A stretch of DNA of 64,000 nucleotides from Chitinophagales bacterium (GTDB lineage Bacteria > Bacteroidota > Bacteroidia > Chitinophagales > Chitinophagaceae): the NCBI GenBank assembly GCA_017303395.1, contig JAFLBN010000007.1:124001-188000 (forward strand). Reading direction: 5' to 3'. A program made the position numbers and the translations under genes. Of this stretch, positions 37,060-41,346 are shown piece by piece. Within the stretch, counting starts at the first letter, position 1; every line of letters begins with the position of its first letter. Below the pieces are notes generated by a model that was not told where the DNA came from, searched no databases, and saw only the letters and a list, made by a program, of their open reading frames with translations.

Positions 37060-37296
37060 GAACCGGTATTTAAATAAAGCCGAAAAAATAACAAGCCCTG
37101 ATTTGAGACCATATTAAAAAGTGATTAAAGATAGCATAGGTTGCCATTTAGTAAATACGTGATTATTATAGCTTTACTATTTTAACTGTTACTCTAATAT
37201 ACGCCAATTTGCCGGAAATAAGATGTACACTTCTTATGGTCTGACCCATGACATTAATTATGAGTATATTGTAGTGATAAAATTAATTTGACCTAT

Positions 37297-39282
37297 ATGA
37301 AAAAACTATTGACACTTATATGCCTTCTTATCGCATCTACAAGTGTTAAGGCTGCAGATACAACAGTCGTAGTATCTCATCAGGATGTAACAATACTGAC
37401 AGACCCTATTGTAGGCAATACCATCTACCCTAAATGGGCTACATTCCCTCCGCTGAGTACACAATACCGTAAAGTGCTCTTGCAGCTCAATTTTGAGTGT
37501 GCACCCGGGTATAAATGCGGTGAGTGGGATTATATGAACAATATTATCGTTGGCCGTGTAGGTACCAAAACTGCAAGTCCGCTCAACTATGAAATAGCAA
37601 GGCTGATGACACCTTTCGGGTTTTATTGGAACTCGGGCATGAATTGGCAACATACCTGGTATTACGATGTTACCGACTTTGCAATGTTACTACACGATTC
37701 TGTAGAAGTAATATACAGACATACAGGCGATGAACCGAATAATGACAGGGGTTGGAAGATTAACCTGAAGTTTATATGTATAAAAGGAACCCCCTCTTGC
37801 GAACCTGTCGCCATGACAAGGTTATGGGATGGTGTTTTTGAATATGGTAATGATAATGACTCCATTGAAAAGCATCTGATACCGGTTAATGTGACGCTGA
37901 ACAATCAGACAAATATAGCAAGGTTCAAAGCCATTAATACAGGGCATGGTAGTGATAGTGCAAGTGGATGTCTTGAATATTGCAAGAAATACAGACAGGT
38001 AAAATGGGATGGTAATGTAGTAAACACCAGAGATCTTTGGCGCAATGATTGTGGTGCAAATGCAGTGTACCCGCAAAGTAACACGTGGGTATATGACAGA
38101 GGTGGTTGGTGTCCGGGTTCACCTGTCAGATACGATGATGTTGATATTACAGGGCTTACGGGTGGTACGCAACATAGTGTTGATATGGATATGGAGCCGT
38201 ATGTGGCATATAAAGAGTATGGCAATTTGAATACAAGTGCTTACTTGATTGAGTATGCAGCACCAGCGAATACTAACGACGTATCTGTTGAAAATATAAT
38301 GGCACCCAGTGCAGAGCCGGAGTTTAAAAGGCTGAACCCTATTTGCGGAAATCCGATAATTGTAATTCGTAATAATGGTAGTGCTACACTAACTAGTGCT
38401 AAAATTGAGTACGGTCTTGATGGTGGTAATATGGCAACGTATGACTGGAAAGGTAATTTGGGACTATGGCAATATGATACTGTAAGGTTGACAAGTCCTG
38501 TAAATTGGGGAAGTAAAAATGGTAAGTTTGTAGTTACGGTTAAAGACCCTAACGGACAGGCTGACGGCTATGCTGATGATAACATGATGAGCTCGGAGTT
38601 TAACGGAGCTAATACTTTCCCTGATAAGATTATTGTGCATTTTATGACCAATAATGATGCTAGTGAAAACTCTTATAAAATTGTAAATGTATCTACAGGG
38701 CAGGTTCACTTCAGCAAGAATAATTTGCGTAATCAGACATTGTATTTAGATACCATCAGCCTTAGCCCGGGTGCTTGTTATCAGTTCTATTTTTCTGACG
38801 AGGGGCAGTCTACGCGTAGCGGAGGAGTAAACAAAGATGGATTACAATTCCTGTCTTTTTATGATTTGCTTGAGGGCACAGGTACTTTAAGAATAAAAAA
38901 TGCCAATAATGGTGCTACCCTGAAAGATGTTACAGCACTCAACGCAGGTCCTTTTGGTCTGTCAGGGGGTAATTTTGGTTCTTTCTACAGTCTGAATTTC
39001 ATGTCAGTCTTTGGTTTGAATACACCAAATGTAGAACCGACAGCTTCTATAGAAGTATTTCCAAACCCTGCAAGCGATAAGCTATATGTAAACTATACAA
39101 CCTCTGCCAGCCAAGGCAATATTCAGCTTTTGGATATGCAGGGAAGAGTATTATATACCGAGGCTATAGCTAAAGTAAGTGGTACTGCTATGATAAATAT
39201 TGCAAGCCTTGTGCCTGGTATATATGTTATAAAGGTGACTACCGGAAATGAGAGCCATGTAGAGAAGGTAGTGAAGCGCTAA
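37297..39282 (+). CDS. PNGase F-like glycoamidase, T9SS-secreted
   Basis: The protein has 661 residues from the ATG at 37297 (MKKLLTLICLLIAS signal peptide). The first 320 residues follow the peptide-N-glycosidase F two-jelly-roll fold: a CGEWDYMNNIIV segment with the Asp expected for catalysis, YEIARLMTPFGFYW with a Glu, GHGSDSASGCLEYCKKY with another acidic pocket residue, and CGANAVYPQSNTW ... GGWCPGSP. The middle has an Ig-like domain, and a T9SS sorting domain ends it (VFPNPASDKLYVNY ... IASLVPGIYVIKV). PNGase F removes N-linked glycans from glycoproteins outside the cell. The residues named here were matched by eye only. The closest alternative is an inactive lectin-like relative. Confidence 0.8.
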   Translation: MKKLLTLICLLIASTSVKAADTTVVVSHQDVTILTDPIVGNTIYPKWATFPPLSTQYRKVLLQLNFECAPGYKCGEWDYMNNIIVGRVGTKTASPLNYEIARLMTPFGFYWNSGMNWQHTWYYDVTDFAMLLHDSVEVIYRHTGDEPNNDRGWKINLKFICIKGTPSCEPVAMTRLWDGVFEYGNDNDSIEKHLIPVNVTLNNQTNIARFKAINTGHGSDSASGCLEYCKKYRQVKWDGNVVNTRDLWRNDCGANAVYPQSNTWVYDRGGWCPGSPVRYDDVDITGLTGGTQHSVDMDMEPYVAYKEYGNLNTSAYLIEYAAPANTNDVSVENIMAPSAEPEFKRLNPICGNPIIVIRNNGSATLTSAKIEYGLDGGNMATYDWKGNLGLWQYDTVRLTSPVNWGSKNGKFVVTVKDPNGQADGYADDNMMSSEFNGANTFPDKIIVHFMTNNDASENSYKIVNVSTGQVHFSKNNLRNQTLYLDTISLSPGACYQFYFSDEGQSTRSGGVNKDGLQFLSFYDLLEGTGTLRIKNANNGATLKDVTALNAGPFGLSGGNFGSFYSLNFMSVFGLNTPNVEPTASIEVFPNPASDKLYVNYTTSASQGNIQLLDMQGRVLYTEAIAKVSGTAMINIASLVPGIYVIKVTTGNESHVEKVVKR

Positions 39283-39362: not shown

Positions 39363-39436
39363 GGACCGGTAGTTCAGTTGGTTAGAATGCCGCCCTGTCA
39401 CGGCGGAGGTCGCGGGTTCGAGTCCCGTCCGGTCCG
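39363..39436 (+). tRNA. tRNA-Asp (anticodon GTC)
   Basis: The cloverleaf is complete: acceptor GGACCGG pairs with CCGGTCC, the D arm is normal, the anticodon stem CCGCC/GGCGG encloses CTGTCAC with GTC, the T arm is GCGGG-TTCGAGT-CCCGT, and the discriminator is G. CCA is not encoded. Immediately downstream come a terminator, a GIY-YIG nuclease gene and a partial copy of this tRNA. Confidence 0.97.
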
Positions 39437-39438
39437 CG

Positions 39439-39470
39439 AAAAAAGCTTCACGAATAGTGAAGCTTTTTTT
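39439..39470 (+). terminator. Terminator of tRNA-Asp
   Basis: AAAAAAGCTTCAC (39439-39451) pairs exactly with GTGAAGCTTTTTT (39457-39469). The T tract ends directly before the ATG of the nuclease gene, leaving it no leader beyond the hairpin. Confidence 0.88.
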
Positions 39471-39734
39471 ATGCCATTTTACGTATACATCATAGAAAGT
39501 ATGGTTGATAAGACCTTGTATAAAGGGTTTAGCTCAGATTATATTAAAAGGTTGGAAGAGCACAATGCTGGTTTGTCAAAGTATACATCAGGCAAAGTAC
39601 CGTGGATACTCAAGTATGTTGAGGTTCATGAAGACAAAAAAATCGCTTTACAGAGAGAGCTGATGTTTAAGAAACAAAATAAGAAGTATTTCGAATGGCT
39701 TTTTGAACAGCCTACCAATATCCTAAGAAATTAA
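39471..39734 (+). CDS. Short GIY-YIG nuclease
   Basis: This 87-residue single-domain nuclease of the UvrC/UPF0213-like GIY-YIG type has YVYIIES in place of GIY, LYKGFS in place of YIG, the Arg helix IKRLEEHNAG, YTSGKVPWILKYVE, and the Glu in ALQRELMFKK. The ATG at 39471 was chosen because the open frame upstream runs through the tRNA. It sits between tRNA-Asp and a partial copy of that tRNA, with terminators on both sides, in an arrangement resembling a minimal homing or tRNA-targeting element. It has no other recognisable domain. Confidence 0.85.
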   Translation: MPFYVYIIESMVDKTLYKGFSSDYIKRLEEHNAGLSKYTSGKVPWILKYVEVHEDKKIALQRELMFKKQNKKYFEWLFEQPTNILRN

Positions 39735-39788
39735 TGTGCCTCCCTGTCACGGTCTCGGCTGAGCCGAGACGGGTTCGAGTCCCGTCCG
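39735..39788 (+). pseudogene. Partial, rearranged copy of tRNA-Asp
   Basis: Two blocks are identical to the intact tRNA: CCCTGTCACGG (anticodon arm, 39742-39752) and CGGGTTCGAGTCCCGTCCG (T arm and start of acceptor, 39770-39788). Between them the normal variable region is replaced by a 19-base perfect palindrome GTCTCGGCTGAGCCGAGAC (39752-39770). The 5' half and the acceptor end are missing, so it cannot be a functional tRNA. Confidence 0.88.
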
Positions 39789-39791
39789 CTA

Positions 39792-39823
39792 AAAAACCAG
39801 ATAAGATATCTTATCTGGTTTTT
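39792..39823 (+). terminator. Terminator after the tRNA fragment
   Basis: AAAAACCAGATAAGAT (39792-39807) is followed with no loop by its exact complement (39808-39823). It ends the nuclease transcript and closes the small insert. Confidence 0.85.
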
Positions 39824-39881: not shown

Positions 39882-39930
39882 TATATTATTTCTGCTACTT
39901 ACATGAATTTCGATGCAAATATTTTCAATC

Positions 39931-41346
39931 ATGTTAGTAGAGCAAATCTATACAGGGTGCCTTGCACAGGCGGCGTATTATATTGAAAGTAAGGGAGAAG
40001 CTGCCATCATAGACCCGTTGAGGGATATTGATGCTTATCTACAGAAAGCCAAGACTAATAATGCTACTATCAAATACATTTTCGAAACACACTTCCACGC
40101 AGACTTTGTATCGGGCCACTTAGACCTTGCAAAAGCAACAGGTGCATCTATAGTGTATGGTCCGACGGCCAAACCGGGTTTTGAAGCTATAACTGCGAAA
40201 GACAATCAGGAATTTATATTGGGTGATATTACCGTAAGGTTGCTACACACACCGGGTCATACGATGGAAAGCTGCTGCTACTTGCTGATAGACGAAAATG
40301 GTGCACAGCGCATGCTGTTTTCTGGCGATACGTTGTTTTTAGGTGATGTTGGTCGTCCTGATCTGGCACAGAAGGCTGCGAATATGACACAGGAAGAATT
40401 AGCGGGTTTGCTATACGATTCACTGCAAACTAAAATAATGCCATTGTCTGATGATATCATCGTTTATCCTGCACATGGCGCAGGCAGTGCCTGTGGCAAA
40501 AACATGAGCAAAGATACATCTGATACCCTCGGCCATCAGAAGGCAACCAACTACGCATTGAGAAAAGGCATTACAAGGACAGAGTTTATACAAGAGGTAT
40601 TGACAGGCCTTACTAAGCCACCGCAATACTTCCCGCTGAATGTGATGCTGAATAAACAAGGCTATGAAAATGTAGGGGAAGTAATTAAGAAAGGCACAAC
40701 ACCACTATCGGTTGCTGAGGTAGCACAATTGTCAAAAGATAACAGTATCATGTTGTTGGATGCACGCAAGCCACAGGATTTTGCCGCAGGTCATATTCCA
40801 GGTGCTATTAATATTGGTATAAATGGAGATTTTGCGCCTTGGGTTGGTACAATCATTGAAGACATCAATCAGAAAATTGTACTGATAACAGATGCTACAG
40901 TTAGCGAAGTGGTAGCAAGGTTGGCTAGGGTTGGTTACGATCATTGCATCGGTTACTTGGATGGCGGCATGAATGCTTGGGTAGCTGCTGGCAAACCTGT
41001 GCAGAAAGTAGAGTCTATTACAGCAGATGAACTGGCAACAAGACTGGAAACACACCCGGTAGCATTTTTGCTGGATGTAAGAAGACAAAGTGAATACGAT
41101 TCAGAACACGTGATAGGTGCAGAAAATATACCGCTGAACTATATTAACGATAATAAGACAGACTGGGATAGAGATGCTACGTACTATGTACACTGTGCAG
41201 CGGGCTATCGCTCAATGATATTTATATCGCTGATGCAGGCAAAAGGCTACAATAATTTTATAGATGTACAAGGTGGTTTTAAAGCCATTAAAGAAAGCAG
41301 CAGACTGAATACCAGCCATTACGTAGAGCCAATAACAATGTTATAA
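39931..41346 (+). CDS. Metallo-beta-lactamase-fold persulfide dioxygenase with two rhodanese domains
   Basis: The protein has 471 residues from the ATG at 39931 (MLVEQIYTGCLAQAAYYI, the usual opening); an in-frame ATG at 39913 would add six. The MBL domain (1-240) has THFHADFVSGH, HTPGHTMESCC, FSGDTLFLGDVGRPDL and PAHGAGSACG, an ETHE1-like iron site. A first rhodanese domain (about 255-350) lacks the catalytic Cys (VLITDATVSEV). A second (about 365-465) keeps it (VHCAAGYRS). It should oxidise glutathione persulfide to sulfite or move sulfane sulfur. Confidence 0.9.
   Translation: MLVEQIYTGCLAQAAYYIESKGEAAIIDPLRDIDAYLQKAKTNNATIKYIFETHFHADFVSGHLDLAKATGASIVYGPTAKPGFEAITAKDNQEFILGDITVRLLHTPGHTMESCCYLLIDENGAQRMLFSGDTLFLGDVGRPDLAQKAANMTQEELAGLLYDSLQTKIMPLSDDIIVYPAHGAGSACGKNMSKDTSDTLGHQKATNYALRKGITRTEFIQEVLTGLTKPPQYFPLNVMLNKQGYENVGEVIKKGTTPLSVAEVAQLSKDNSIMLLDARKPQDFAAGHIPGAINIGINGDFAPWVGTIIEDINQKIVLITDATVSEVVARLARVGYDHCIGYLDGGMNAWVAAGKPVQKVESITADELATRLETHPVAFLLDVRRQSEYDSEHVIGAENIPLNYINDNKTDWDRDATYYVHCAAGYRSMIFISLMQAKGYNNFIDVQGGFKAIKESSRLNTSHYVEPITML

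Follow-up and report, generated by a model that had tools for sequence, protein, structure and literature searches.

A small GIY-YIG nuclease gene between an intact tRNA-Asp and its palindrome-swapped partial copy, a candidate minimal tRNA-directed cassette in Bacteroidota

The small single-domain GIY-YIG proteins of the Ssn family from Neisseria are reportedly single-strand nucleases that act in transformation and are said to go with dispersed palindromes of the TCCC-N8-GGGA type, the NTS repeats; we know of no tRNA-nested arrays in this system. Slx1 works with Slx4, and neither Slx1 nor UPF0213 is known to us as tRNA-nested. In E. coli, the 178-bp repeats at tyrT (rtT) are arranged in tandem downstream of the tRNA, each with a tRNA 3' fragment, and to our knowledge hold neither a nuclease gene nor a palindrome-swapped arm. 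Integrative elements in tRNA genes are flanked by one complete and one partial tRNA copy, according to the accessible part of the source (PMC9897764). SegB of phages T4 and T6 is a free-standing GIY-YIG homing endonuclease found beside tRNA genes of many isotypes; it cuts within tRNA genes, and nuclease-dependent tandem amplification of a tRNA together with segB by homologous recombination has been shown experimentally, as presented in the available portions of the paper (PMC13096335). Here we describe a locus in a 64,000-nucleotide stretch of DNA (the window) from Chitinophagales bacterium GCA_017303395.1 (contig JAFLBN010000007.1, positions 124,001 to 188,000; genome of 3.76 Mb, here G000). 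In this unit, an intact tRNA-Asp is followed by a gene for an 87-residue GIY-YIG nuclease and then by a partial copy of the tRNA that carries a palindrome in place of one arm segment. We see about an even chance that the unit is a minimal selfish GIY-YIG cassette lodged in a tRNA gene, which would cut one arm and be copied in during repair, with the palindrome marking the converted site.

The tRNA-Asp of the window is the sole full-length tRNA-Asp match in the G000 genome. It is followed by a terminator-like hairpin, and the ATG of the nuclease gene lies directly after the T tract of this hairpin. The partial tRNA-Asp copy spans about 39737 to 39789, 3' of the nuclease open reading frame (ORF), and is followed by a second terminator-like hairpin, perhaps a terminator displaced from the tRNA (Table 1). 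An earlier reading made from the letters alone (the sequence-only reading) had proposed the intact tRNA, the two terminators and a nuclease gene starting at the end of the T tract, and all of these were borne out. It had also taken both the anticodon arm and the T arm of the copy to be identical to those of the tRNA. This holds for the T arm, but the anticodon arm is only half present, with one mismatch in 16 nt, and the palindrome TCTCGGCTGAGCCGAGA in place of most of the anticodon 3' strand and the variable loop had been overlooked. The first piece of the copy (..CTGTCACGG) ends at tRNA position 41 and the T arm (CGGGTTCGAG..) resumes from position 51, the native CGGAGGTCG between these junctions being exchanged for the palindrome. 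The unit holds a single ORF, in agreement with the earlier description of one nuclease and no integrase. Identity of unit parts with other RNAs was rejected, the Rfam matches to such RNAs all being weak and under the gathering score.

Table 1. Coordinates of the features of the unit in the window
Feature	Start	End	Strand	Remarks
Intact tRNA-Asp (GTC)	39363	39437	+	tRNA call, Rfam 70.2 bits
Terminator-like hairpin in the tRNA/nuclease gap	39439	39469	+	13-bp inverted repeat and T tract
Gene for 87-residue single-domain GIY-YIG nuclease	39471	39734	+	Pfam GIY-YIG 5.3e-14
Partial tRNA-Asp copy: anticodon 5' strand, loop and first 2 nt of 3' strand	39737	39752	+	15 of 16 nt identical
17-nt perfect palindrome, arms TCTCGGC and GCCGAGA around TGA	39753	39769	no strand	Replaces the rest of the anticodon 3' strand and the variable loop
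Partial tRNA-Asp copy: T arm and part of acceptor stem	39770	39789	+	39770-39788 (19 nt) identical
Second terminator-like hairpin	39792	39823	+	Inverted repeat, 16-nt arms with A/T tracts

The same arrangement recurs widely: the nuclease is bounded by an intact tRNA and palindrome-swapped partial copies, units occur in tandem, and their presence varies among relatives. A contig scan with the window protein gave 13 loci. The protein family was matched in 166 of 294 genomes, and a profile of 19 proteins was matched in 260 of 392 genomes of the phylum, although a match to the profile does not by itself make a tRNA-nested unit. Thirty loci were taken from each of the two genome lists, together with 120 further places from both; these GIY-selected loci are mostly the best-scoring ones, and low-scoring members are under-sampled except in the three-genome check described below. 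The tally comprises 189 loci, or 181 distinct loci after merging 8 duplicate pairs, and excludes loci that had been retrieved by searching for tRNAs or palindromes, the loci L001-L004 of G000 itself and the duplicates L213, L217 and L229. One locus cut by a contig end (L017) gave no model match. Counts of partial copies, tree labels, retention and array polarity given below predate the merging.

A tRNA called by ARAGORN lies within 150 bp of the gene in 147 of the 189 loci (141 of 181 distinct), on the same strand as the nuclease in all 147. The nearest tRNA is upstream in 108 loci (median gap 39 bp) and directly downstream in 39. In 136 of the 147 loci (130 distinct), the tRNA has an additional partial copy on the same strand, compared with 9 of 147 when a random tRNA of another isotype was used as the query, and a coincidence of repeats was rejected. 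Homologues are strongly enriched at tRNA genes; a lack of such enrichment would have told against the mobility proposed in the sequence-only reading. Twelve isotypes are represented among the distinct loci (Asp 47, Ser 25, Ala 19, Arg 13, Val 8, Pro 7, Gly 7, Leu 5, Glu 3, Gln 2, Lys 2 and Asn 2), together with one call as Stop. Two of the 147 reference tRNAs, L129 and the one called as Stop (L145), look arm-swapped themselves in our reading, and the rest of the 40 that were flagged have native anticodon or T arms. In a less selected check, 51 profile matches in three single-contig genomes, picked for having many matches, formed 28 loci, of which 18 are near a tRNA, all on the same strand, adding Cys and Met to the tRNA hosts. 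The genes stand alone, outside introns and inteins, beside a tRNA as a free-standing homing endonuclease gene does, and the tRNA would be the target. Outside Bacteroidota, a similar GIY-YIG gene was seen 30 bp 3' of a tRNA-Gln in a WOR-1 bacterium (L013, METM01000004.1), with no evident partial tRNA copy.

The partial copies tend to lack one particular segment of the tRNA. Among 85 partial copies of the 75-nt tRNA-Asp from 34 loci, position 38 is retained in 52%, positions 39-41 in 20-21%, 42-44 in 1%, 45-50 in 4-5% and position 51 in 60%. Positions 36-41 are kept in 0% of tRNA-Ala copies (28 copies, 14 loci), 30-43 in 0% of tRNA-Val copies (13, 6 loci), 51-56 in 0% of tRNA-Gly copies (10, 6 loci) and 12-18 in 7% of tRNA-Pro copies (14, 4 loci). 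The palindrome lies in the T loop with little loss in Leu and Glu. Full-length extra tRNA copies are rare, six having been found. The usual replacement is a TCCCG..CGGGA palindrome. The tRNA-Asp inserts were picked by their flanking sequence and not by palindromicity; 31 of 35 were used after four native-like 12-nt segments had been dropped, and these 31 distinct inserts are related sequences and not independent. All 31 form Watson-Crick pairs at stem positions 1-4 and 6, and 81% do so at position 5, whereas the pairing expected for independent columns is 0.62, 0.31 and 0.63 at positions 3, 5 and 6. The palindrome stem therefore covaries in the tRNA-Asp copies. The outer letters of the inserts are TCYC..GRGA, with one exception that begins TTCC. 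In the partial copy at L068 (G297), the T loop is inverted within its stem, with CGGGACTCGAACCCG for CGGGTTCGAGTCCCG, as if the hairpin loop had been flipped.

Tandem arrays of the units were also found. In G284, the tRNA-Asp is followed by 16 nuclease copies, the last of them truncated, with an exact period of 360 bp, and other arrays hold 3-5 copies with periods of 315-450 bp. Some tRNAs are accompanied upstream by gene-less units, which combine a leader, a 5' tRNA half and the palindrome with the beginning of the T arm. Elsewhere, in G278 and G024 among others, the gene itself is found 5' of the intact tRNA and is preceded by a palindrome-bearing 5' tRNA piece. Among 45 arrays, with one at a contig edge set aside and with five duplicate pairs that are all ties, the shorter copy is the farthest from the intact tRNA in 17 and the nearest in 4, with 23 ties (p 0.007). 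Arrays that grow at the tRNA end, or are protected there, would show such a polarity. Downstream of a tRNA-Asp in G189 (L191), about five tandem units consist of a terminator, a T-loop piece, a palindrome and an acceptor end, with no nuclease gene. The motif GTCA was examined as a general flank signal and occurred 40 times against 20.7 expected in 11 loci, with a strong signal in 4-5 loci; in the others it was lacking or no commoner than expected.

The window protein has the fold and the catalytic Y, Y, R and E of the GIY-YIG superfamily (PF01541); Y6, Y17, G19, R27 and E63 are invariant in an alignment of 19 diverse members. Its AlphaFold model has a predicted local distance difference test (pLDDT) score of 94.3. 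The nearest solved relatives are the UPF0213/YhbQ-type proteins and Slx1, both in sequence (UPF0213 BH0048 1zg2, 7.1e-19; Slx1 7cq2, 2.4e-8; then I-TevI, 0.0025) and in fold (Foldseek with the model: 1zg2, 2.9e-5; Slx1, 4e-3). Judging from sequence and the predicted model, the nearest functionally known relatives would be the branched-DNA nuclease Slx1 and, more weakly, I-TevI. The protein has no family match in NCBIfam. A phage or plasmid origin was rejected, tblastn with the window protein giving no matches in 50,697 phage records at 1e-5 and the matching plasmid records being two, both weak.

The nuclease lineages follow the tRNA isotype. On a tree of 132 proteins, from which identical proteins had been removed and in which 12 of 129 inner branches are starred, the isotype labels change 30 times, compared with 82.3 times in shuffled labels; none of 200 shuffles, which ignore relatedness, was as low. 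For the 45 of the 132 proteins with a genome assigned, mean identity is 0.53 between proteins of the same isotype in different genomes (128 pairs), 0.34 between different isotypes in one genome (7 pairs) and 0.395 when both isotype and genome differ (855 pairs).

The unit is unevenly distributed among close relatives. In the genus, it occupies the tRNA-Asp in 2 of 15 genomes (G000 and G297), and in 11 the tRNA-Asp is present with no family-model match within about 1.5 kb. In the remaining two, the contig ends inside the tRNA in one and no tRNA-Asp was obtained from the other. Relatives without the unit therefore exist; a fixed arrangement in all of them would have told against the mobility proposed in the sequence-only reading. 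In nine genera picked for having one filled member, the unit is present in 13 of 28 genomes and absent from 14, and the last one carries a non-coding array. Synteny with the window extends over both flanks in G296, a genome without the unit (left flank: 546 identities, 116 mismatches and 32 gaps; right flank: 763, 125 and 24). The G296 site has a similar terminator, then ATGCCATT, which equals the first 8 nt of the nuclease ORF, and then the right flank. The pattern TCYCGGCTNAGCCGRGA, which describes the unit palindrome, occurs at one place in G000, the unit itself (reversed control 0), so the palindrome is not a common dispersed repeat of this genome. Three of the 15 genus members have the pattern, at one place each, namely the two unit carriers and G299, where it is located elsewhere. 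The mobile unit proposed in the sequence-only reading agrees with the enrichment at tRNA genes and with the existence of relatives lacking it, while the only syntenic site looks like a loss; the proposal was also incomplete, having left out the palindrome, the arrays, the mirror-image upstream units and the many isotypes.

In a selfish cassette, the nuclease would cut or nick the arm missing from the extra copies, perhaps as a single strand or cruciform. The pattern of lost segments would place the cut site within the lost part of the tRNA, and the patchy distribution, the isotype-tracking lineages and the arrays suggest that the cassette moves. The broken tRNA gene would be repaired by copying a neighbouring, sister or incoming cassette via the tRNA halves flanking the break, and this repair would keep one tRNA intact and install or add a cassette. 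The palindrome in the converted copy would no longer hold the native target, and out-of-register repair would make arrays. Low nuclease expression by read-through of the tRNA terminator would limit self-damage; a terminator-like hairpin is present in 57 of 92 tRNA/gene gaps of 15-120 bp, compared with 9 of 92 shuffled ones, which suggests that expression is low. An enzyme specific for single strands or branched DNA, in the manner of Slx1, would likewise do less damage.

Several observations weigh against a cassette of this kind. The only syntenic site in the genus, that of G296, retains the first 8 nt of the nuclease ORF and is therefore more readily seen as the scar of a loss than as a site never occupied. 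Unlike in a classical homing allele, the intact neighbouring tRNA retains the presumed target, the called tRNA staying beside the gene in the near-tRNA loci; in the accessible part of the SegB paper, weak cutting of donor alleles is given as one way round target retention (PMC13096335). The lost segment is not uniform within isotypes. The tRNA-Ser copies (27 copies, 13 loci) show a blunt notch, with positions 29-34 kept in 37% and 22-27 in 74%; a second tRNA-Asp group of 76 nt (16 copies, 6 loci) keeps 37-51 and loses 52-59, indicating that the lost site goes with the lineage and not with the isotype alone; and Arg and Gly show two places of loss each. The outer letters TCCC..GGGA are common across isotypes and suggest a role for the palindrome beyond that of a passive scar. 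Non-coding arrays such as that in G189 indicate that amplification needs no nuclease gene in cis. No tRNA lies within 150 bp in 40 of the 181 distinct loci and in 10 of the 28 loci of the three-genome check; some of these tRNA-less loci are at contig ends or near fragments, and others have repeats of another kind. Among the 10, one sits at a palindrome-bearing tRNA-Leu-like piece, and another directly follows a transfer-messenger RNA (tmRNA). At the latter locus (L366 in G587), the tmRNA (743-1101) is closely followed by a GIY-YIG gene that contains one stop and lies between 49-bp direct repeats at 1140-1188 and 1507-1555, so tmRNA may be a host gene too.

The likeness to Ssn and NTS in the small single-domain GIY-YIG protein, and perhaps in an association with dispersed palindromes of the TCCC-N8-GGGA type, leads to a different explanation. 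The palindrome would be the recognition site of the nuclease itself, comparable to the neisserial dRS3-type repeat, the tRNA arms would be natural hairpins where this site settled, and the unit would not necessarily be a homing cassette; the enzyme would act on single-stranded DNA, for example in transformation or replication. We consider this unlikely. In its favour, in 98 genomes of the family (97 genera), the number of TCCCGA(N2-10)TCGGGA palindromes tracks the GIY count (Spearman 0.55, p 3e-9), whereas the reversed control does not (Spearman 0.07, p 0.47; means 2.2-2.6), genomes not listed as positive being counted as 0. The mean number of palindromes is 3.7 at zero GIY (42 genomes), 12.5 at 1-2 (34) and 27.0 at three or more (22). 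The covarying stems of the tRNA-Asp copies also fit, as do the repeats that match on both sides of the gene in 7 of the 10 non-tRNA loci of the three-genome check, compared with 10 of 90 cross-locus controls. The palindrome places listed for G003 are 16 bp long with the geometry TCCC-N8-GGGA, with one exception, and this geometry is shared by the neisserial dRS3 repeat ATTCCC(N8)GGGAAT, as given in the available portions of the sources (PMC3898611, PMC3046118). No ORF of at least 80 residues covers the palindrome in 12 of the 15 G003 loci read, and most of these 12 share short repeat flanks; in G057, the copies stand in two recurring flanks, some within long open frames. On the other side, G000 itself has 2 TCCCGA palindromes against 11 of the reversed control, and palindromes occur without any GIY match in G092 (20; genome 60% complete), G009 (12) and G035 (11). 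The unit palindrome is confined to the unit in G000 and G297 and absent from 12 of the 15 genus members, the palindrome flanks are different tRNA parts in each isotype, and a recognition site alone would give no explanation for the loss of the same tRNA segment. As a separate observation, a second small GIY-YIG gene of G000 (G000:C12:96480-97070; L002, L304-L307) has copies of GCGAGGAACGAAGCAATCTC on its flanks, two direct and two inverted; this sequence occurs 18 times in the genome at up to 2 mismatches (reversed control 0). REP/RAYT systems, with a Y1 transposase beside palindromes, were rejected as a match, the gene in the unit being of the GIY-YIG type.

Two further explanations give the nuclease a lesser role. 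Passive hairpin-driven slippage or unequal crossing-over could duplicate tRNA neighbourhoods and carry the nuclease along, as arrays of identical or near-identical units and the non-coding array would suggest; this leaves the isotype-tracking lineages, the invariant catalytic residues and the recurrent lost segment unexplained, and we regard it as improbable. A function at the RNA level, in which the partial tRNAs are processing signals or decoys (for RNase P/Z or tRNA-cutting toxins) and the nuclease is a passenger or an amplifier of tRNA dosage, appears slightly less probable still. It draws on near-complete copies with one swapped arm that ARAGORN still calls (Pro, Arg, and one of Lys type that is read as Stop) and on the amplification of a functional tRNA gene by SegB in phage T6, as far as the accessible part of that paper goes (PMC13096335). 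Against it, the anticodon strand or an entire half is missing from many copies, and those upstream units that were seen end within the T loop and do not reach the 3' half, which fits neither tRNA dosage nor RNase Z processing. Extra copies of full length are few, and dosage amplification was rejected, most partial copies having lost part of the tRNA.

Compared with the known systems, a selfish cassette would stand closest to SegB, both being GIY-YIG nuclease genes next to tRNA genes of many isotypes and in tandem repeats. SegB differs in being phage-borne and in amplifying a unit with a full tRNA, and the available portions of the paper describe no palindrome-replaced arm for it; its motif is RAWTSGAAC (PMC13096335). 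In our own reading, the reverse complement of this motif resembles the T loop. Homology at the level of the SegB family is not indicated, the window protein having no tblastn phage match, and a remote GIY-YIG kinship remains. The unit shares the flanking complete and partial tRNA with integrative elements in tRNA genes but differs from them in having no integrase, a repeat unit of about 300-450 bp, tandem arrays and a junction palindrome. An integrase-borne genomic island was rejected: the unit has no other gene, and array periods of 315-450 bp leave no room for an integrase. With the rtT repeats, the units have in common a tandem arrangement 3' of a tRNA and a tRNA fragment. The neighbours of the unit in the window encode a protein with an N-glycanase C-terminal domain and a Por sorting signal (37288-39282) and a metallo-beta-lactamase-fold/rhodanese protein (39913-41346).

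A broader and more doubtful proposal, which we put forward tentatively, is that such units are phylum-wide tRNA parasites, in which a GIY-YIG nuclease of 80-90 residues puts a palindrome in the place of one arm of a given tRNA gene. Arrays reminiscent of CRISPR, with arm-swapped tRNA copies and nuclease genes in tandem, would then grow from the intact tRNA. Among the matches listed in a literature search of incomplete coverage, many of them on fungal mitochondria, arm-swapped tRNA copies or such arrays were not described. If the proposal is true, nuclease lineages tied to single isotypes would be among the smallest autonomous tRNA-directed mobile elements, and the exchange of an arm for a palindrome would be a new DNA-processing reaction, to the novelty of which we give a minority chance. 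Since these small nucleases each appear tied to one tRNA arm, cutting by a single-domain GIY-YIG protein with specificity for sequence or structure becomes directly testable. A single 87-residue protein without an integrase could then inhabit a single-copy tRNA gene without killing its host. In Bacteroidota, such units would account for partial tRNAs and might also be behind breaks of assemblies at tRNA genes; they would provide a bacterial counterpart to SegB.
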